Both the position numbers and the translations under genes were made by a program. This document shows positions 28,614-37,834 of a stretch of DNA of 64,000 nt, in pieces. A model generated the notes under the pieces. The model worked only from the letters and a program-made list of their open reading frames with translations, did not search any database and had not been told where the DNA came from. Each line of letters begins with the position of its first letter. The stretch's first letter is position 1. Origin of the DNA: Comamonas odontotermitis. GTDB lineage: Bacteria; Pseudomonadota; Gammaproteobacteria; Burkholderiales; Burkholderiaceae_C. The stretch lies in NCBI RefSeq assembly GCF_020080045.1, contig NZ_CP083451.1:3087001-3151000 (forward strand), written 5' to 3'.

Positions 28614-29048
28614 CTAGTTTTCAGGCTCTCCAGAAAGAATGCGACGAATTTCCTGCAATTCGATAGCGGCCTGTTGCCAGGTGACCGGCTCTGCAGAATT
28701 GAACGCACTTGCCTCATCCAATGCAGCTGGGTCCATTCCATTCAGTGTGAACGCAGCGTCATCTGCCAAAGCCTCCAGCATGGCGTGGCCACGAGGCAGG
28801 GTTTGCAACTGGTTGCGCGCGCCGCTGATGGTGAAGCCACGCTCATACAACAGCTCTCGAATGCGGCGAATCATCAACACCTCGTGGTGCTGGTAATAGC
28901 GCCTGTTTCCCCGGCGCTTGACGGGACGCAGCTGTGTGAATTCCTGCTCCCAATACCGCAGCACATGCGGTTTGACATCACACAGCACCGCGACTTCACC
29001 GATGGTGAAATAACGTTTGGCGGGGATGGAGGGAAGCTGTTTTTCCAT
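28614..29048 (-). CDS. MerR-family transcriptional regulator
   Basis: A 144-residue MerR-type protein. Residues ~10-80 are the winged HTH (KRYFTIGEVAVLCDVKPHVLRYWEQEFTQLRP, RRGNRRYYQHHEVLMIRRIRELLYERGFTISGARNQL). The remaining ~60 residues are acidic and lack the metal-binding cysteines of MerR proper. This 'ihfA-linked MerR' is commonly found between ihfA and tRNA-Pro in beta- and gammaproteobacteria; its target is not known. A TTG at 29054 is in frame but ATG 29048 is preferred. Confidence 0.9.
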   Translation of the reverse strand: MEKQLPSIPAKRYFTIGEVAVLCDVKPHVLRYWEQEFTQLRPVKRRGNRRYYQHHEVLMIRRIRELLYERGFTISGARNQLQTLPRGHAMLEALADDAAFTLNGMDPAALDEASAFNSAEPVTWQQAAIELQEIRRILSGEPEN

Positions 29049-29170
29049 GGGCAAATTGTAAACAGCCGCTAGTGCGGCCGTGTTGCATACTGGCGATGCT
29101 GCCAGACGGGCGGTAGGCCATGTCTGCGGATGGACAATCTCAATCCATCAGCGCATCGCCACCTTCAAGT

Positions 29171-29491
29171 CTAGTCTGCCGGAGCCTGCACCGAATCCTT
29201 GAGCTTGCCACTGGCATGGAAGGTGACGACCCGGCGCGCCTCGATAGGCACCTCTTCGCCAGTGCGCGGATTGCGGCCCGGACGGGCTTTCTTCATGCGC
29301 ACCTGGAAATTGCCAAAGCTCGACAGTTTCACGTCTTCGCCCTTGATCAGGCTTTCGGCGATCAGGTCGAAAAACGCATCCACCATGTCCTTGGCTTCAC
29401 GCTTGTTCAACCCGATGTTGTCAAACAGCATGTCGGCGAGCTGCGCCTTGGTCAGCGCAGGTTGCTCCAGACTTTCTACTGTAAATTCCAT
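29171..29491 (-). CDS. ihfA: integration host factor subunit alpha
   Basis: A 106-residue DNABII protein. [36 protein letters not shown] forms the helices, then [47 protein letters not shown] with the DNA-intercalating proline in RNPRTGE. Alpha rather than HU or beta, from the sequence and from its place right behind pheT (20 bases), as in E. coli. IHF bends DNA in recombination, replication and transcription. An N-terminal extension of ~10 residues ([12 protein letters not shown]) is slightly longer than in E. coli. Confidence 0.95.
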
Positions 29492-29511
29492 AGCAATATC
29501 CGCAATATAGA

Positions 29512-31965
29512 TCAGCGCAAACGCGCATTAACGCTCTGCTTGAGCTGTTCAAGCACAGCTTGCATGGCAGTCTCGATTTCGGTCTCTTCCAGTGCCCGCT
29601 CGTCATGACCCAGGGTCAGGCGTACTGCCAGGCTCTTCTCATCCTGCGCCAGGCTGCCTGGCGCGGCTTCTTCACCGGCCTTGAGCTTCTTGGGGCGGAA
29701 CACATCGAACAGTACGGCATTGCGCAGGATACCGCCACTGTTGGCGGCACGGATGGCATTCATGATCTGCGCGTGCGTCTCGGCTTCCTTGACCACCACG
29801 GCAATGTCACGCTCCACAGCCTGGTGCTTGGCCACAGGCTTGAACACTGCCACGTTGCGGGCCAGCACGGCATCGAGCTCCAGCTCGAATAGGGTGGGCG
29901 CTTGCGCCAGATCCCATTCCTGGCGCCACTGGGGGTGCAGCTCTCCTACAAAACCGATAGCCTTGCCATTGAGCAGCACACGAGCGCAGCGGCCGGGGTG
30001 CATGGCCGGATGCTCGGCAGCCTCGAACACAGGCACCAGAGGCGCCAGCAGCGCTTCCACATCGCCCTTGACGTCGTAGAAATCGACCTTGGTTTCGGTG
30101 CTGCCCCATTGCAGTTGGTCGGCTGCGCCATAGGCGAGGCCAGCTACGCGCATGGGCTGGTAAAAGCCCTTCACGGTGGTGTCGGAATCGACGACCGATA
30201 CATCCTTGAAGAATACACGCCCCAATTCGAACACGCGCACGCGCTGTGCCTTGCGGTCCACATTGAACTTGAGCACCTGCAGCAGCGAGCCCAGCAACGA
30301 CGAGCGCATCACGCTCAGATGGCTGGCAATCGGGTTGAGCAGCTTGATGGCATTGCTGTTGCCCGCCAGCTCCTGCTCCCACTTTTCTTCGACAAAGCTG
30401 AAGTTGATGGTTTCCTGGTAGCCCAGGGCTGCCAGTTCACGGCGCACGGCAAACGGGCTGCGCTGGTTCTCGGCACGCAGCTTGGGCGAGATGGGCGCCA
30501 GCGGCTTGGAGGTTGGCAGGTTCTCGTAGCCCACCATGCGGGCCACTTCCTCGATCAGATCCTCTTCCAGGTTGATGTCGAAGCGGAAGGTGGGAGCAGT
30601 CACGCTGATCACGCCCTCGGCAGCCACCACAGCCGGCAGGCCCAGGCCATTCAGGGCATCCAGGCATTGCTGCTGGGTGACGGGCATGCCGATGACCTTG
30701 GCAGCCCGCGCCACGCGCAGCTGCACGGTCTTGGGCGCAGGCATATGAGGCTTCTGGTCGTCCATCGGGCCGCACTGGGTCTCGGGCGTACCGCAGATCT
30801 CCAGCACCAGCGCTGTGATCCGCTCGATGTGTTCCACCGTGTGCTCGGGATCTACACCGCGCTCGAAGCGGTGGCCGGCGTCGGTCGAGAAGTTGAAGTG
30901 GCGCGAGCGGCCCGCCACTGCCTTGGGCCACCAGAACGCAGCCTCGATGTAGATGTTCTTCGTGTCGTCGGACACAGCCGTGGCGTCGCCGCCCATGATG
31001 CCGGCCAGGGATTCGACTTCCTTGTCGTCGGCAATCACACCGACCTGAATGAAATCATCGATCTTGATGGTGTTGCCGTTGAGCAGCTTGAGCGTCTCGC
31101 CCTCCTTGCCCCAGCGCACGCTCAGGCCGCCATGGATCTTGTCCAGATCGAAGATGTGGCTGGGTCGGCCCAGCTCGAACATCACGTAGTTGGAGATGTC
31201 CACCAGCGGCGACACGGAGCGCTGGCCGCAGCGTGCAAGGCGATCCACCATCCATTGCGGCGTCTTCACCTGGGTGTTGACGTTGCGCACCACGCGACCC
31301 GAGAAGCGGCCGCACAGGTCGGTGGCTTCAATCTTCACGGGCAGTTTGTCCTGCACGGCAACGGCAGCCTGCGGGAAGGACAGTTGCTTGAGCGGCGTGC
31401 CGGTCAGTGCCGACAACTCGCGCGCAATGCCATACACCGACAGGCAATGCGCCAGGTTGGGAGTGAGCTTGAGCGTGAACAGCGTGTCATCCAGATTCAG
31501 GTATTCGCGCACGTTCTGGCCTAGAGGCGCGTCCAGCGGCAGCTCCAGCAGGCCGCCGTGGTCGTCGGCAATGCCCAGCTCCTTGGCCGAGCACAGCATG
31601 CCAAAGCTCTGCACGCCGCGCAGCTTGCCGATCTTGATCTTGAAAGGCTGGCCATCTTCGCCCGGGGGCAGCTCAGCGCCCACGGTGGCACAGGGAATGC
31701 GGATGCCCACGCGCGCATTGGGTGCGCCGCAGACGATGTTCAGCAGCTCTGGGCCGCCCACATCCACCTGGCAGACGCGCAGACGGTCGGCGTCGGGGTG
31801 CTGCACGGCCTCCTTGATTTCACCGACCACAATGCCGGTGAAAGGCGGGGCCACGGACTCCATCTCTTCGACTTCCAGGCCGGCCATGGTCAGGGTATCG
31901 GCCAGCTCTTGGGTGGTCAGCTGCGGGTTGCAGTATTCGCGCAACCAGGATTCAGGAAATTGCAT
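29512..31965 (-). CDS. pheT: phenylalanyl-tRNA synthetase beta subunit
   Basis: 817 residues, normal for PheT. Domains in order: N-terminal [14 protein letters not shown]; tRNA-binding OB fold ~40-150 ([28 protein letters not shown]); B3/B4 editing region ~210-400; B5 domain ~405-480; the catalytic-like core ~490-690 ([45 protein letters not shown]); C-terminal anticodon-binding FDX-ACB domain from ~720 ([27 protein letters not shown]). It pairs with PheS to charge tRNA-Phe. It lies 162 bases behind pheS; a dispersed repeat copy is in the gap. Confidence 0.96.
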
Positions 31966-32024
31966 AGTCAGACTCTTTGGCGTTCAGGCTTGTTGGCAGT
32001 GCTTGCAAACAGGCCAAGGCGTTC

Positions 32025-32063
32025 TTGCTTTCAAAACAGGAGCTGTTTGCGTATGGCTGGCGG
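32025..32063 (+). repeat. ~45-bp dispersed repeat, partial copy in the pheS-pheT gap
   Basis: Starts TTGCTTTCAAAACAGGAGCT and keeps the TGCG...TGG...GCG spacing of copy A, but with many substitutions. Confidence 0.45.
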
Positions 32064-32127
32064 TCATCTTCAGACACTTTCTTCTTTAAAGCCAGGCAGG
32101 ATGCACGCAAACTGCTCACTTTTTCAA

Positions 32128-33180
32128 TTACTGAAACTGCGACAGGAAACGGATATCTCCGTCGAAGAACAGGCGCAGGTCATTCACGCCATAACGCAGC
32201 ATGGTCAGGCGGTCGGGGCCCATGCCAAAGGCAAAGCCGATGTATTTTTCGGGGTCAAGGCCCATGTTGCGCACCACATTGGGATGCACCTGTCCGGCAC
32301 CCGACACTTCCAGCCAGCGGCCAGCCAGCGGGCCACTCTGGAACTGGATGTCTATCTCGGCCGAAGGTTCGGTGAACGGGAAGAAACTGGGGCGGAAGCG
32401 CAGCACCAGATCGTCCTGCTCGAAGAACGTCTTGCAAAAATCGGTGAACACCACCTTCAGATCCTTGAAGCTGACGTTCTCGCCGATCCACAGGCCTTCG
32501 CACTGGTGGAACATGGGCGAGTGGGTGGCATCGCTGTCCACGCGGTAGGTGCGGCCCGGCGCGATCACGCGGATCTCCGGCATCGTCTGGCCTGCGTCGA
32601 TCAGGTTGCGGTACTTCTTCACATGCTGTACGGCATGGCGCACCTGCATGGGGCTGGTGTGCGTGCGCAGCAGATTGGGCGCGTGCTGCGTGCCGCCTTC
32701 AACGTAGAAGGTGTCGTGCATGGAGCGCGCGGGATGGTCTTCCGGCGTGTTGAGCGCCGTGAAGTTGAACCAGTCGGATTCGATCTCCGGGCCTTCTGCC
32801 ACGTCGAAGCCCATGGAGCCGAAGATGCCCTCGATACGCTCCAGCGTCAGCGAGACGGGGTGCAGTCCGCCTGCGCCACGGCGGCGGCCAGGCAGCGTCA
32901 CATCCAGCACTTCGGCTTTCAGGTGGGCCTGCAGTTCGGCATCGGCCAGGGCCTTGCGGCGGGCCGTGAGCAGCGACTCGATGGCTTGCTTGGCCACATT
33001 GATCGCCGCACCGCGCGACTTTTTCTCTTCGACGGAAAGCTGCGCCATGCCCTTCATGAGCTCGGTCATCTTGCCCGACTTGCCCAGAAACTGCGCCTTG
33101 GCATTTTCCAGATCCGCGGGGGTATGGGCCTGCGCAAACAGTTGCTGCGCGCTCTCGACCAGAGAATCCAACTCGTTCAT
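32128..33180 (-). CDS. pheS: phenylalanyl-tRNA synthetase alpha subunit
   Basis: 350 residues. An N-terminal coiled coil (~1-85) contacts tRNA, then the class II catalytic domain: motif 1 region [54 protein letters not shown], motif 2 [19 protein letters not shown], and motif 3 [34 protein letters not shown] hairpin with T run lies between rplT and this gene and may attenuate it. Confidence 0.96.
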
Positions 33181-33199
33181 ATCGACTCTTTATCGATTC

Positions 33200-33244
33200 T
33201 TAAAAAGAAACAAGGGCTAGTGCCTTTTCAAGCCCTAGCCCTTG
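33200..33244 (-). terminator. terminator-like hairpin (possible attenuator) between rplT and pheS
   Basis: On the minus strand CAAGGGCTAG (33244-33235) pairs perfectly with CTAGCCCTTG (33220-33211) around a 14-base loop, then TTTCTTTTT. It sits inside the ribosomal protein/pheST operon, so it must be leaky or conditional. Confidence 0.75.
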
Positions 33245-33295
33245 CTGTGTATGCACCAGCAGCTACTGAATCAGGAGTAACTACTGATCGTGACC

Positions 33296-33655
33296 TCAGG
33301 CAGCCAGCTTGGCCTTGACTTGGTCGACGATAGCTGCAAAAGCAGCCTTGTCGTGCACGGCGATATCGGCCAGCATCTTGCGGTCGATTTCAATTGCAGC
33401 CTTCTTCAGACCGTTGGCGAATTGGCTGTAGGTCAGGCCCAGTTCACGTGCAGCAGCATTGATACGAGCGATCCACAGTTGGCGGAACACGCGCTTCTTG
33501 TTGCGACGGTCACGGTAGGCATACTGACCAGCCTTCATGACGGCTTGCTTGGCAACGCGGAATACGTTACCACGGCGGCCGCGGAAACCCTTAGCAAGGG
33601 CCAGAACTTTTTTGTGGCGGGCGCGAGCCGTTACACCACGTTTGACGCGAGGCAT
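33296..33655 (-). CDS. rplT: 50S ribosomal protein L20
   Basis: 119 residues starting [28 protein letters not shown], with the basic N-terminal extension and the globular C-terminus ([41 protein letters not shown]) standard for L20. It binds 23S rRNA early in 50S assembly and in E. coli represses rpmI-rplT translation. It follows rpmI by 26 bases. Confidence 0.97.
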
Positions 33656-33681
33656 GTGTTTTCTCCTTGTTCGTCAGTGAA

Positions 33682-33885
33682 TTACAGGCCCATGCCGGGC
33701 AGCATCTGTGCCATGTGACCCATGTTGGTCTCATGCACGTTCACTGCACCGCGCAGGTGGCGCTTGTTCTTGGTGGTCTTCTTGGTCAGAATGTGACGCT
33801 TGAAGGCTTGACCGCGCTTGACGGTGCCACCTGGACGAACGCGAAAACGCTTCTTCGCGCTGCTCTTGGTCTTCATTTTGGGCAT
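33682..33885 (-). CDS. rpmI: 50S ribosomal protein L35
   Basis: 67 residues, [20 protein letters not shown] onward, ending in [24 protein letters not shown]. Very basic, normal L35 length. Start at 33885 has GGAG nearby (AAGGAGCATTCAC on the minus strand); a longer frame to 33957 is not family-like. Confidence 0.96.
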
Positions 33886-33991
33886 GTGAATGCTCCTTAT
33901 GGATTGTGCTCGTGAGGCGTTCAGACCACTTGGCTGAACTTGTTGGCCCCGAGCCACTTTTGCGACAGACCGGAAACCCTATCTATCGAAG

Positions 33992-34019
33992 AAAAGCCGC
34001 TGCCAATACAAACAGCGGC
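33992..34019 (-). terminator. second hairpin in the infC-rpmI gap
   Basis: GCCGCTG (34019-34013 on the minus strand) pairs with CAGCGGC (34002-33996) and is followed by TTTTC. Together with the hairpin at 34061-34092 it would limit readthrough into rpmI or fold as part of a leader. Confidence 0.6.
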
Positions 34020-34060
34020 CCAGATTCTGAACCCCTGAAGCACAAGCAATTGCCCTTCAT

Positions 34061-34092
34061 AAAAACCGAAGGCGGCTATGCGCCGCCATCGG
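34061..34092 (-). terminator. intrinsic terminator-like hairpin after infC
   Basis: An 11-position stem with one mismatch (34066-34076 with 34082-34092), loop of five, followed on the minus strand by TTTTT. It is 24 bases past the infC stop. Confidence 0.75.
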
Positions 34093-34115
34093 AATTCAGT
34101 ATTTTATGCGATTTT

Positions 34116-34721
34116 TCAAGCCGCTGCCACTGGCGCCTTATCACCTTCGGCAGTTTTACCACCAGCAGCACCTGGTTTTTTGCGCGCAGGCGCCACCATC
34201 ATGATCATCTGGCGACCTTCCAGCTTGGGGAACTGCTCCACCTGAATGGTATCGGCCAGCTCGTCGCGGATGCGGTTGAGCAGGTCCATGCCGAGGTTCT
34301 GGTGGGTGATTTCACGACCACGGAACCGCAAGGTCACCTTGACCTTGTCGCCCTCTGCCAAGAAACGCTTGATATTGCGCATCTTGACGTTGTAGTCGCC
34401 ATCATCGGTACCGGGACGGAACTTGACTTCCTTGATATCGATGACGGTCTGCTTGGCCTTGGCTTCTGCCGCCTTCTTCTGTTCCTGGTACTTGAACTTG
34501 CCGTAGTCCATCAGACGGCACACCGGCGGCACAGCCGTGGCGGCAATCTCGACCAGGTCAACGTCCAGTTCGCCCGCCATGCGCAACGCTTCCAGCACAG
34601 GCACGATACCCAGAGGTTCATTGTTAGGACCGGACAGACGCACTTCAGGAGCCTGGATCTCACGATTCAGACGGTGTTTGCGCTCTTCACGGTGGCGGCG
34701 ATCACGAAATTCAGTAGCTAT
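34116..34721 (-). CDS. infC: translation initiation factor IF-3
   Basis: About 201 residues. N-domain: [55 protein letters not shown]-domain: [45 protein letters not shown], ending with a Lys/Ala/Pro tail. The start is probably a non-standard AUA at 34721: the only Shine-Dalgarno-like stretch, TTAGGGTGA, ends five bases before it and overlaps the alternative GTG at 34730. IF-3 genes are known for rare start codons used in autoregulation. The gene follows thrS as in most bacteria. Confidence 0.93.
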
Positions 34722-34809
34722 GGCTTTCACCCTAAAAATTTAAAAGCTACGACAGCGTAGCTGCTCAAAGCACAGTCCACGCTGTCCAAAGCTCATCTAC
34801 CAGAGGGTT

Positions 34810-36741
34810 TTATGCTTTAGAGGCAATGTCCTTGGCGATCAGTTCTGCGAACGCATCGACGGACATCACACCGAGGTCTTTGCCGCCTCGGGCGCGCACT
34901 GCTACGGCTCCAGCTGCCTTCTCCTTGTCACCCGCGACGAGAATATAGGGCAGCTTTTGCAACGAATGCTCCCGTATTTTATACGTAATCTTCTCGTTGC
35001 GCAGGTCGGTAACCACACGCAACCCTTGGTGCGGCAAGGCCTTACGCAATTTGTCGGCAACCTCCTTCACATATTCCGCCTGCGCGTCAGTGATGTTGAG
35101 GATCGCAACCTGGGTAGGCGCCAGCCAGGTGGGCAGCGCGCCGGCGTGCTGCTCGATCAGGATGCCGATGAAGCGCTCGAGCGAGCCCACGATGGCGCGG
35201 TGCAGCATGATGGGGCGATGGCGCTCGCCATCTTCGCCGACAAATTCTGCGTCCAGGCGCTCTGGCAGGTTCGGGTCCACCTGGATGGTGCCGCACTGCC
35301 ATTCACGACCCAGCGCATCCTTGAGGGTGTACTCGATCTTGGGACCGTAGAAGGCACCTTCGCCAGGCAGGTACTCGAAATCGCAGCCCGATGCGCGCAG
35401 GCCTTCGGCAAGCGCAGCCTCCGCCTTGTCCCAGCTCTCTTCCGTGCCGATGCGCTTTTCAGGGCGGGTGGACAGGCGGTAGAGGATGTTGGTGAAGCCG
35501 AAATCCGCATAGACCTTCTGCAGCAGCGCAGTGAAGGCCGTCACTTCGGCCTGAATCTGCTCGGGCAGACAGAAGATGTGGCCGTCATCCTGCGTGAAAG
35601 CGCGCACGCGCATGATGCCGTGCAGCGAACCGGTGGGCTCGTTGCGGTGGCAGTTGCCGAATTCACCAAAGCGCAGCGGCAGATCACGGTAGCTCTTGAT
35701 GCCTTGCTTGAAGATCAGGATGTGGCCCGGGCAGTTCATCGGCTTGAGTGCGTACTCGCGCTTTTCCGATTCGGTGGTGAACATGTTTTCGCGGTACTTG
35801 TCCCAGTGGCCGGTCTTCTCCCACAGGGTCTTGTCCAGAATCTGCGGTGCCTTCACTTCCTGGTAGCCGTTGTCGCGGTAGACCTGGCGCATGTACTGCT
35901 CTACCTCCTGCCAGATCGTCCAGCCCTTGGGATGCCAGAACACGGTGCCGGGCGAGTGCTCATCGATGTGGAACAGATCAAGCTCGCGGCCGAGCTTGCG
36001 GTGGTCGCGCTTTTCCGCCTCTTCCAGCATGGTGAGGTATTGCTGCAACTCGTCCTTGCTGGCCCAGGCCGTGCCGTAGATGCGTTGCAGCATCTCGTTG
36101 TTGTGGTCTCCACGCCAATAAGCGCCAGCCACCTTCATCAGTTTGAAATGCTTGAGCTTGCCGGTGCTGGGAACGTGGGGGCCACGGCACAGGTCTTCAA
36201 AGTTGCCTTCGCGGTACAGGCTCACATCCTCATTGCTGGGGATGCTGGCAATGATCTCGGCCTTGTAGTCTTCGCCAAGGCCCTTAAAGTAGGCCACGGC
36301 TTCGTCGCGCGGCAGCACGCGGCGCACCACAGGCTCATCCTTGTTGGCAAGCTCGGTCATGCGCTTTTCGATGGCAGCCAGATCTTCGGGGGTGAAGGGG
36401 CGCTTGTACGCAAAGTCGTAGTAGAAGCCGTTTTCGATCACCGGGCCGATGGTGACCTGCGCCTCGGGAAACAGCTCCTTGACGGCATAGGCCAGCAAGT
36501 GGGCGGTGGAGTGGCGGATCACTTCCAGGCCATCTTTATCCTTGGCGGTGATGATGGCGAGCGGCGCATCCTGCTCGATCACGTGGCTGGTGTCCACCAC
36601 CTTGGCGTTATCGCCAATACCGACCTTGCCGGCCAGCGCGGCCTTGGCCAGGCCCGCGCCAATCGATGCCGCGACATCGGCCACCGATACCGGGCCGGGA
36701 TAGTCGCGCTTGGAGCCGTCGGGGAGCGTAATTTGAACCAT
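34810..36741 (-). CDS. thrS: threonyl-tRNA synthetase
   Basis: 643 residues, standard length. TGS domain ~1-62 ([20 protein letters not shown]), editing domain ~63-225 with [25 protein letters not shown] and the [10 protein letters not shown] signature, catalytic core ~245-535 with the zinc cysteine in [11 protein letters not shown], motif 2 [35 protein letters not shown], motif 3 [19 protein letters not shown], then the anticodon domain. AGGAA five bases before ATG 36741 supports the start; an upstream extension to 36858 crosses the attenuator and is not protein-like. Expression is likely governed by the Thr-rich leader at 36883-36927. Confidence 0.96.
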
Positions 36742-36795
36742 AAGAATTCCTGTAATCGTGGTGATGGATGGGCAGATGCAAGTCCGCGCAGCGCC

Positions 36796-36920
36796 AAAAA
36801 AGCAAAAAGCGCGAAACTGGTCCGCGCTTTGGAAGGGAGAGGAGGAGGACGATGACAATCGTGCAGGCGCGAACCACCGGCCTTAGCGGCCAGTCAAACC
36901 TCCAGAGGTCGTCGTTCGCG
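36796..36920 (-). promoter_or_regulatory. candidate thrS transcription attenuator (hairpins 1:2, 2:3, 3:4)
   Basis: On the minus strand four segments can pair alternatively. Segment 1, CGCGAAC (36920-36914), lies within the leader peptide codons. Segment 2, GGTTCGCGCC (36875-36866). Segment 3, GCGCGGACC (36827-36819). Segment 4, CGCGCTTT (36813-36806). 1:2 is 7 bp perfect; 2:3 is 9 bp with one G-U; 3:4 is an 8-bp terminator stem (AAAGCGCG/CGCGCTTT) followed by TT-GC-TTTTTT. A ribosome stalled at the Thr codons would cover segment 1, free 2 to pair with 3, and block the terminator. Visible in sequence; function inferred. Confidence 0.75.
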
Positions 36921-36927
36921 GTGTCAT
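36883..36927 (-). CDS. threonine-rich leader peptide of thrS
   Basis: ATG at 36927, TAA at 36883. The product MTPRTTTSGGLTGR has five threonines in 14 residues, three of them consecutive (ACG ACG ACC, codons 5-7). It ends about 140 bases upstream of the thrS ATG and directly ahead of mutually exclusive hairpins and a terminator. The upstream AAGG is 11 bases away, a weak ribosome binding site. A chance peptide would rarely combine this composition with this placement. Confidence 0.7.
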   Translation of the reverse strand: MTPRTTTSGGLTGR

Positions 36928-37081
36928 AACCGAATGTGCCTTTCTCGCTCTTGTGCAGGGTTAGAAAACTGATAAACATCGTCATTTTCCCACACTCTGA
37001 TGCAATCTGCCGCTGTTGTGGCAATCCGCAACGCCACAAGCTTGCCATAATGAAAACGATAGCAGACCCTGACGATTTGAT

Positions 37082-37834
37082 ATGCCCTGTCGCACCGCCC
37101 GATCTGTAGGAATTTCCGCATGCCTGACTGCGTTATTGCTGCTGGCAGGCTGCAGCAATGCACCTACCACGCGCGGCAAGGTGCCGGATCGCGACATGGA
37201 AGCCAAGGAATGGGGGCAGTCCGACGTCAACCGCATGGCCACGCTCAGCATACAAGCCAATTTGCAAAGCCTGTACACCCTGATGGACAAGCTTTACCGC
37301 CGCAATCCGCAGGAATGGCGCAAGGGAGGCTTTGACAGCCGCGAGCAGGCCATGAAAGCCGTCAAGGAGGCCATCGAGAACCAGCAGCCCTGGCCCGACC
37401 TGATGGACCAGCGCGATATCGACGGCATGAGCATGGCGCTGGCGCCCGAGTTTTCCAGCGACCGCGTGGCCGCCTTTACCTGGGCCACAGCCGACATGCT
37501 GATCACCGCCTACGGCGGCCGCACCACCCTGTATCTGATTCACGGCCTCGATGCGCAGACGGTCTACAACGCCTCGCGCAACCTGGAAATCGCCAACTGG
37601 ATGCTCACCCACCGCAAACTTGCCAATGGCCAGCCCATGCTGCTGACCAACGAGATCAACACCAGTGAGCGCAACCTGAGCTTCGAGCGCGAGTTCGGCA
37701 AGATGATTGCGCGCAACGATCTGATGGCCGATGTAGTGTCCGAGAAATACCGCCGCGCCGTGATCGGCTATGTGCAGGGTCTGGCTGGCGGCAGCCTGCT
37801 GCAGTTTTTGCCGGTGCAGGCGGTGGCGCACTAG
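37082..37834 (+). CDS. predicted lipoprotein
   Basis: 250 residues with a signal peptide ending in LLLLAGCSN (lipobox Cys ~24). The mature protein is helical (NRMATLSIQANLQSLYTLMDKLYRRNPQEWRKGGF, DRVAAFTWATADMLITAYGG, NASRNLEIANWML, FEREFGKMIARNDLMADVVSEKYRRAVIGYVQG). I recognise it only as a betaproteobacterial hypothetical lipoprotein; role unknown. No Asp at +2, so outer membrane sorting is expected. Confidence 0.75.
   Translation: MPCRTARSVGISACLTALLLLAGCSNAPTTRGKVPDRDMEAKEWGQSDVNRMATLSIQANLQSLYTLMDKLYRRNPQEWRKGGFDSREQAMKAVKEAIENQQPWPDLMDQRDIDGMSMALAPEFSSDRVAAFTWATADMLITAYGGRTTLYLIHGLDAQTVYNASRNLEIANWMLTHRKLANGQPMLLTNEINTSERNLSFEREFGKMIARNDLMADVVSEKYRRAVIGYVQGLAGGSLLQFLPVQAVAH

Follow-up and report, generated by a model that had tools for sequence, protein, structure and literature searches.

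A candidate ribosome-mediated transcription attenuator with a threonine-rich leader peptide ahead of thrS in Comamonas and other Burkholderiales

Escherichia coli thrS is the textbook case of an aminoacyl-tRNA synthetase that represses its own translation via a tRNA-like hairpin. Is the same gene controlled in the same way in Comamonas odontotermitis? The initial annotation of the DNA analysed here (the window, a stretch of 64 kb in all) proposed instead that thrS is governed by ribosome-mediated attenuation in response to tRNA-Thr. Our comparison of the leader frame, its Thr codons and the antiterminator among related genomes supports this proposal: judged from sequence, the leader very probably senses charged tRNA-Thr and controls thrS by ribosome-mediated transcription attenuation. 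In a large group of bacteria, it is thus a candidate for the sensing of threonine-tRNA charging.

The leader and its pairing segments in the window

The elements of the putative device, and thrS itself, lie on the minus strand:

36939..36945, minus strand: Shine-Dalgarno sequence AGAAAGG of the leader frame; GAAAGG stands at the equivalent place in most family leaders
36883..36927, minus strand: leader peptide frame MTPRTTTSGGLTGR plus TAA; its MTPRT start is kept in the family, and Thr is enriched in this frame only
36918-36916, minus strand: rare CGA, codon 4 of the leader, just 5' of Thr codons 5-7
36907..36915, minus strand: Thr codons 5-7 (ACG ACG ACC), the likely sensor
36914..36921, minus strand: segment 1, CCGCGAAC, within the leader codons
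36876..36894, minus strand: inner hairpin ACTGGCC...GGCCGGT, with the leader stop codon in its loop
36866..36875, minus strand: segment 2, GGTTCGCGCC, whose alternative partners are segment 1 and segment 3
36819..36827, minus strand: segment 3, GCGCGGACC, the antiterminator partner, overlapping the terminator 5' arm
36806..36830, minus strand: terminator hairpin AAAGCGCGGA-CCAGT-TTCGCGCTTT
36796..36808, minus strand: T-rich run TTTTTGCTTTTTT
34810..36741, minus strand: thrS, threonyl-tRNA synthetase (MVQITLPDG...), with its ATG start at 36741

The small Thr-rich frame of the initial annotation is present (minus strand, 36927-36883): it comprises 14 codons plus TAA, and five of its codons specify Thr, three of them consecutively. 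Its assignment to the attenuator class follows from a short, apparently translated frame with a Shine-Dalgarno sequence and frame-specific codon bias, clustered codons of the amino acid tied to the gene (Thr for thrS), a predicted intrinsic terminator between leader and thrS, and an antiterminator (2:3) that excludes this terminator. When both strands of the 64-kb window were searched for a Thr-clustered frame with a Shine-Dalgarno sequence and a strong terminator, the leader alone qualified; under a rule admitting any amino acid, one other frame passed, inside infC.

The three mutually exclusive pairings were likewise found at the sizes first claimed (7, 9 and 8 bp), the last being a T-tailed terminator. 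Pairing 1:2 is CGCGAAC:GTTCGCG (7 bp), 2:3 is GGTTCGCGC:GCGCGGACC (9 bp, including one G-U), and 3:4 is AAAGCGCG:CGCGCTTT, which comes to 10 pairs when extended. An independent terminator scan recovered 36830-36806 with the tail TTGCTTTTTT; 54 nt separate the end of this T-tailed terminator from the thrS start codon. A lone hairpin would prove little, because the same scan yielded 11 terminator-like sites on both strands of 29000-37150 (8 kb), versus 7.5 in shuffles; the leader terminator has the most pairs among the 11 (10, 5 of them G-C). The predicted 2:3 energy in the window is −19.2 kcal/mol, versus −12.8 ± 2.4 for shuffled spacers, while that of 1:2 (−15.5 versus −13.5 ± 2.6 when shuffled) is not exceptional alone. 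Minimum-energy folding of the whole 211-nt leader was uninformative (z = −1.05), as expected because the structures are alternatives. An Rfam covariance-model search of the leader matched no family, T-box included, even at an E-value of 5, and a sequence scan called no sigma-70-like promoter upstream of it.

The mechanism suggested by this arrangement is as follows. A ribosome would translate the 14-codon frame as RNA polymerase proceeds through the leader. Given ample Thr-tRNA, the ribosome would arrive at the stop codon, which lies in the loop of the inner hairpin, a few bases short of segment 2. The ribosome would then mask segment 2 or, once released, leave it to be captured by segment 1, and the 3:4 terminator would form, stopping transcription near 36796. 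Under Thr-tRNA shortage, the ribosome would stall on Thr codons 5-7, covering segment 1; segment 2 would pair with segment 3, no terminator would form, and thrS would be transcribed. We infer the stalling, the termination, the readthrough and the physiological signal from the features listed.

Conservation of the leader in the family set

That the leader is real is decided by its conservation. We found the 14-base pattern ATGACACCGCGRAC, usually as a single copy, in 225 of 299 family genomes and 117 of 141 genera (reversed-pattern control: 10 of 299 family genomes by our count of the table), and 28 of the 30 copies fetched sit 123-190 nt upstream of thrS; the remaining 2 come from genomes holding a second, unfetched match. 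A slightly looser motif was found at 30/30 own-genus loci and at 49/78 named loci, whose genera include Comamonas, Acidovorax, Delftia, Hydrogenophaga, Rhodoferax, Roseateles and Leptothrix. The family set combines own-genus, named and motif-bearing pattern loci, at least one of which (L114) comes from another family of the order. By our reading of the table, the thrS match is near full-length in 57 of 61 genomes.

Past the conserved start the leaders diverge, as in MTPRTTSEMYFSC, MTPRTTTTTTSTSTEV (Leptothrix, with nine Thr), MTPRTTTTTPTRV and MTPRTPTPTSTEVFA; sequenced relatives of Rubrivivax gelatinosus and Roseateles carry MTPRTTTSTSKV and MTPRTTTTTPTRV. Conservation of codons 1-5 is partly a product of the selection pattern, which covers them; this includes the rare ACA at codon 2 (95/95 leaders), most of which is fixed by the motif. 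In 95 distinct leaders, 225 of the 844 codons after codon 5 specify Thr, whereas the two shifted frames give 14/844 and 17/844; against the 7.5% expected from base composition the enrichment is 3.5-fold, the highest of the 20 amino acids. Codon 6 specifies Thr in 70 of these 95 leaders and codon 7 does so in 42; the Thr clusters shift position from leader to leader yet persist. Frames of more than 40 codons were skipped, identical sequences were merged, and leaders identical from codon 6 to the end were merged for the codon counts. All 108 distinct leaders have a T-tailed hairpin behind them; L059, one of the 108, had its terminator mis-called and was left out of the codon, pairing and inner-stem counts. 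The initial annotation had made its proposal depend on conservation of the frame and its Thr codons among relatives: both are kept in the family, and divergent forms occur in other families of the order.

Do the alternative structures persist as well? Compared with dinucleotide shuffles, the remaining 107 leaders give a mean z of −1.46 for 1:2 and −1.79 for 2:3 (pairing with the terminator 5' arm), with z below −1 in 64% and 75% of leaders, respectively; the best 1:2 and 2:3 sites overlap by at least 4 nt in 97 of the 107, versus 42% expected. A recognisable standard segment 2 is present in 69 of the 107. At the position opposite A of segment 1 and G of segment 3, 58 of the 69 have U and 11 have C, counts taken from leaders fitting a search pattern that permitted T or C alone at that base. 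U pairs with both; the 11 C leaders keep 2:3 and lose that 1:2 pair. The inner stem scores at least 12 in 49% of family leaders, versus 4% when shuffled, its sequence varying while the stem is kept, and the stop codon falls inside it in 60/69 leaders (52% when shuffled). Compensatory change in the stems, which had been named as a further check, was thus found in part: 2:3 keeps its alternative pairing while its sequence changes, but segment 1 hardly varies among the family leaders, so support for 1:2 comes from segment 2 and from the inner stem. The invariance of segment 1 is itself partly an artefact of the selection pattern, which covers it.

The spacing is also regular: the distance from the stop codon to the start of segment 2 is 7-12 nt in 57/69 leaders, and that from the first base of codon 5 is 29-43 nt in 69/69. 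Given the usual ribosome footprint, segment 2 is within reach of a ribosome positioned on the stop codon and beyond that of one waiting on the Thr codons. For the family, then, comparison supports the predicted frame, Thr codons, terminator, overlapping 1:2 and 2:3 sites, geometry and genomic position.

The MTPRT motif is absent from 29 of the 78 named loci, of which 21 retain a terminator-like hairpin near thrS; a few of the T-tailed hairpins at motif-less loci (e.g., L074 and L079) are doubtful. Limnohabitans, Polaromonas and others have no leader frame and keep a GCGCGG-loop-CCGCGC hairpin with a T run, about 35-80 nt before thrS (L033, L038, L039, L041, L044, L046, L058, L088 and others). 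There the hairpin lies directly behind an apparent promoter, and an essential gene is preceded by a terminator for which no antiterminator is visible. Three Ralstonia loci (L087, L092 and L093), also among the 29, carry, by our reading, the leader MIQAPRTTTASERQ or a near variant, which shares the CCGCGAACTAC core and has no GTTCGCG partner; in L087 the leader starts 290 nt before thrS.

The order-wide survey and the CGA codon

We surveyed the regions upstream of thrS in 128 Burkholderiales genomes from 51 families under a single rule applied to all 20 amino acids. This order set derives from 130 genomes minus G000, G002 and G006, which were handled in the family set, plus five added; G390, G404, G418 and G436 were also left out (thrS partial, split or unfetched), and short stretches were oriented by a heuristic on the thrS N-terminus. 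A short-frame search that maximised the Thr count had caught the end of an upstream gene and frames overlapping tRNAs; it was replaced by motif- and Shine-Dalgarno-based rules with all 20 amino acids as controls. At least three Thr within five codons of a short frame preceded by a Shine-Dalgarno sequence were found at 21 loci in 11 families, with 0.1 expected after shuffling; Cys, His and Leu passed the same rule once each and the remaining amino acids never. One known miss of the Thr rule is the MTPRT leader of G174 (L170). A terminator is present in 97 of the 128 genomes. The second thrS copy of G363 (L275), a divergent paralog with 59% identity, is preceded, as read by eye, by a leader-like frame ending in VTTTTTTSTAT, with a strong hairpin and no T run behind it; Thr control of this copy looks like an independent origin.

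The most widespread dipeptide in such frames is Arg-Thr, found in 42 of 128 genomes (23 families) versus 6-9 after shuffles that preserve base composition alone, and in 3 of 60 genomes outside the order; by our rule no Arg-Thr leader was found in the other 86 of 128. The N-terminal length varies (MFRT, MSFRT, MNILRT, MCNGLSFRT) and the frame is kept. Some of the order leaders hold just one or two Thr codons, e.g., MDRRTCIGQRS and MFRTCSLALYC. At 38 loci from 20 families, the window's included, 2:3 pairing beats shuffles (p = 3e-4) and a foreign segment 3 (p = 0.007), the reverse swap being marginal (p = 0.066). Pairing 1:2 beats shuffles (p = 0.0036), but its swap test against foreign spacers is not significant (12/20 families, p = 0.12). 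Evidence of a 1:2 pairing with segment 1 in the sensor codons thus comes from the family set and is weak in the rest of the order, where, given that swap result, the device may run on 2:3, 3:4 and ribosome masking alone.

The Arg codon is CGA in 40 of the 42 Arg-Thr leaders (23 families), and the Thr codon that follows is ACT in 30, ACG in 10 and ACA in 2. In ten window genes CGA makes up 2.8% of Arg codons, and ACA and ACT make up 4.1% and 6.7% of Thr codons. Of 43 CGAAC[TG] sites, 35 are spanned by an ATG frame in which CGA is one of the codons, and 8 by no such frame. We rejected pairing with GTTCG as the sole explanation of the conserved CGAAC: GTTCG is enriched (12 of 38 loci versus 2.4 expected) and occurs in 8 of 20 families only. 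Why a Thr codon so often follows CGA is a puzzle that these data raise. One possibility, which we offer tentatively and consider rather doubtful, is that these leaders form a distinct thrS-leader class in which a CGA-ACN pair that paces the ribosome acts as the sensor, or the decoding of CGA acts as a second input, and which took the place of the ThrRS-binding operator of other Gammaproteobacteria early in the order. If so, the slow, rare CGA would synchronise the ribosome with RNA polymerase, and one Thr codon behind CGA could be enough.

The same codons could instead make the leader a general sensor of translation stress, which would register any slowing of the ribosome on CGA-ACN, be it through antibiotics, CGA decoding or starvation of any kind, with Thr as one of several inputs. 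Such a sensor would account for CGA preceding Thr in 40/42 leaders, for the rarity of CGA, ACA and ACT in the window genes and for leaders with a single Thr; it fits poorly with Thr clusters that move yet persist, with Thr alone being enriched order-wide and with thrS as the gene behind the leader, and we consider it unlikely.

Other readings and related systems

A hairpin in E. coli thrS mRNA is described as being recognised by ThrRS for repression (PMC3858243). Control of this type, in which ThrRS binds a tRNA-like hairpin at the thrS ribosome-binding site and blocks translation, would concern the same gene, and an E. coli thrS (L337) has such a hairpin, gtgatc-tttcgtgtg-gatcac. We looked for a hairpin with a CGUA-like loop by the thrS start codon in 60 of 130 genomes outside the order (those fetched, one per Gammaproteobacteria family, mostly taken from the best matches downward): it occurs in 36 of the 60 families, versus a mean of 7.5 when shuffled, whereas the same, loose rule finds it in 13 of 128 order genomes. 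By eye, none of these 13 has the usual GTGG/GCGG-type stem, and L247 alone has a CGUA loop, on another stem; nor was an E. coli-type operator hairpin seen by eye in the 5' region of thrS in the window, a copy outside the scanned set. Such an operator would also leave the Thr codons, the conservation of the frame and the T run unexplained. We therefore rejected it for the order and hold it to be very improbable here.

Conversely, the rule that found Thr leaders in the order found them in 0 of the 60 Gammaproteobacteria families outside it. Because no Thr leader passed the rule in this outside set and operator-like hairpins occur in 36/60 genomes there versus 13/128 in the order, the putative attenuator and the E. 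coli-type operator appear largely to replace each other across lineages. A related order thus appears to control thrS by an unrelated, ribosome-read device, and a regulatory swap at one essential gene becomes datable and testable.

An ordinary terminator that ends upstream transcription (of tRNA-Val in many families), the small frame being incidental, is hardly credible: tRNA-Val, called by sequence motif, does lie just upstream of thrS in many order genomes, and Limnohabitans and the like keep a T-tailed hairpin with no leader, but tRNA-Val is found in 0/5 family genomes checked and nowhere near thrS in the window, the frame, Thr codons and antiterminator are conserved, and segment 2 matches the terminator 5' arm.

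The attenuator reading has well-known counterparts. In the enterobacterial trp, thr, his and ilv attenuators, a leader rich in the sensed amino acid is combined with three alternative pairings and a terminator. The thrS leader resembles them in its Thr-rich frame, three pairings and a segment 1 inside the sensor codons; unlike them, it would control the cognate tRNA synthetase rather than biosynthesis, and it matches no Rfam family. Leader-peptide attenuation of an aminoacyl-tRNA synthetase is known from E. coli pheM-pheST, from which the thrS leader differs in amino acid (Thr, not Phe), gene, position and lineage. In Firmicutes, a Thr-specific T-box at thrS responds to uncharged tRNA-Thr by antitermination, the tRNA binding the RNA directly; the thrS leader would respond to the same signal but has no T-box match. 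The E. coli thrS operator shares the target and would share the feedback on threonylation capacity, but it is a protein-binding hairpin that acts at the level of translation, and its distribution is largely complementary to that of the leader. A 2004 paper by Vitreschak and others is said to deal with proteobacterial attenuators. In the open-access literature, we recognised no report of a thrS leader peptide by title or abstract; relative to that literature, the kind of device is known and its occurrence on thrS is apparently unreported. For bacilli, His leader peptides have been predicted ahead of hisZ and of a hisS paralog (PMC2965389). These resemble the thrS leader in having a synthetase-family target whose relatives use another regulator (there, the T-box), and differ in belonging to Firmicutes and to His; the main text of PMC2965389 does not contain the word thrS.

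The genes behind thrS (infC, rpmI, rplT, pheS and pheT) may conceivably share the control, as the initial annotation suggested; two weak terminator-like hairpins occur among them, one in the gap from thrS to infC (34762-34745) and one in that from infC to rpmI (34087-34071). E. coli has the pheM attenuator between rplT and pheS. In the window this gap contains, at 33244-33202 on the minus strand, a hairpin, CAAGGGCTAG...CTAGCCCTTG, followed by TTTCTTTTT, and no Phe-rich frame was seen there by eye. On the other side, judged by motif, thrS stands directly behind tRNA-Val (GAC) in many order genomes, with leader and terminator between them (e.g., L116, L124, L178 and L208); outside the order, many of the 60 genomes likewise have this tRNA ahead of thrS.
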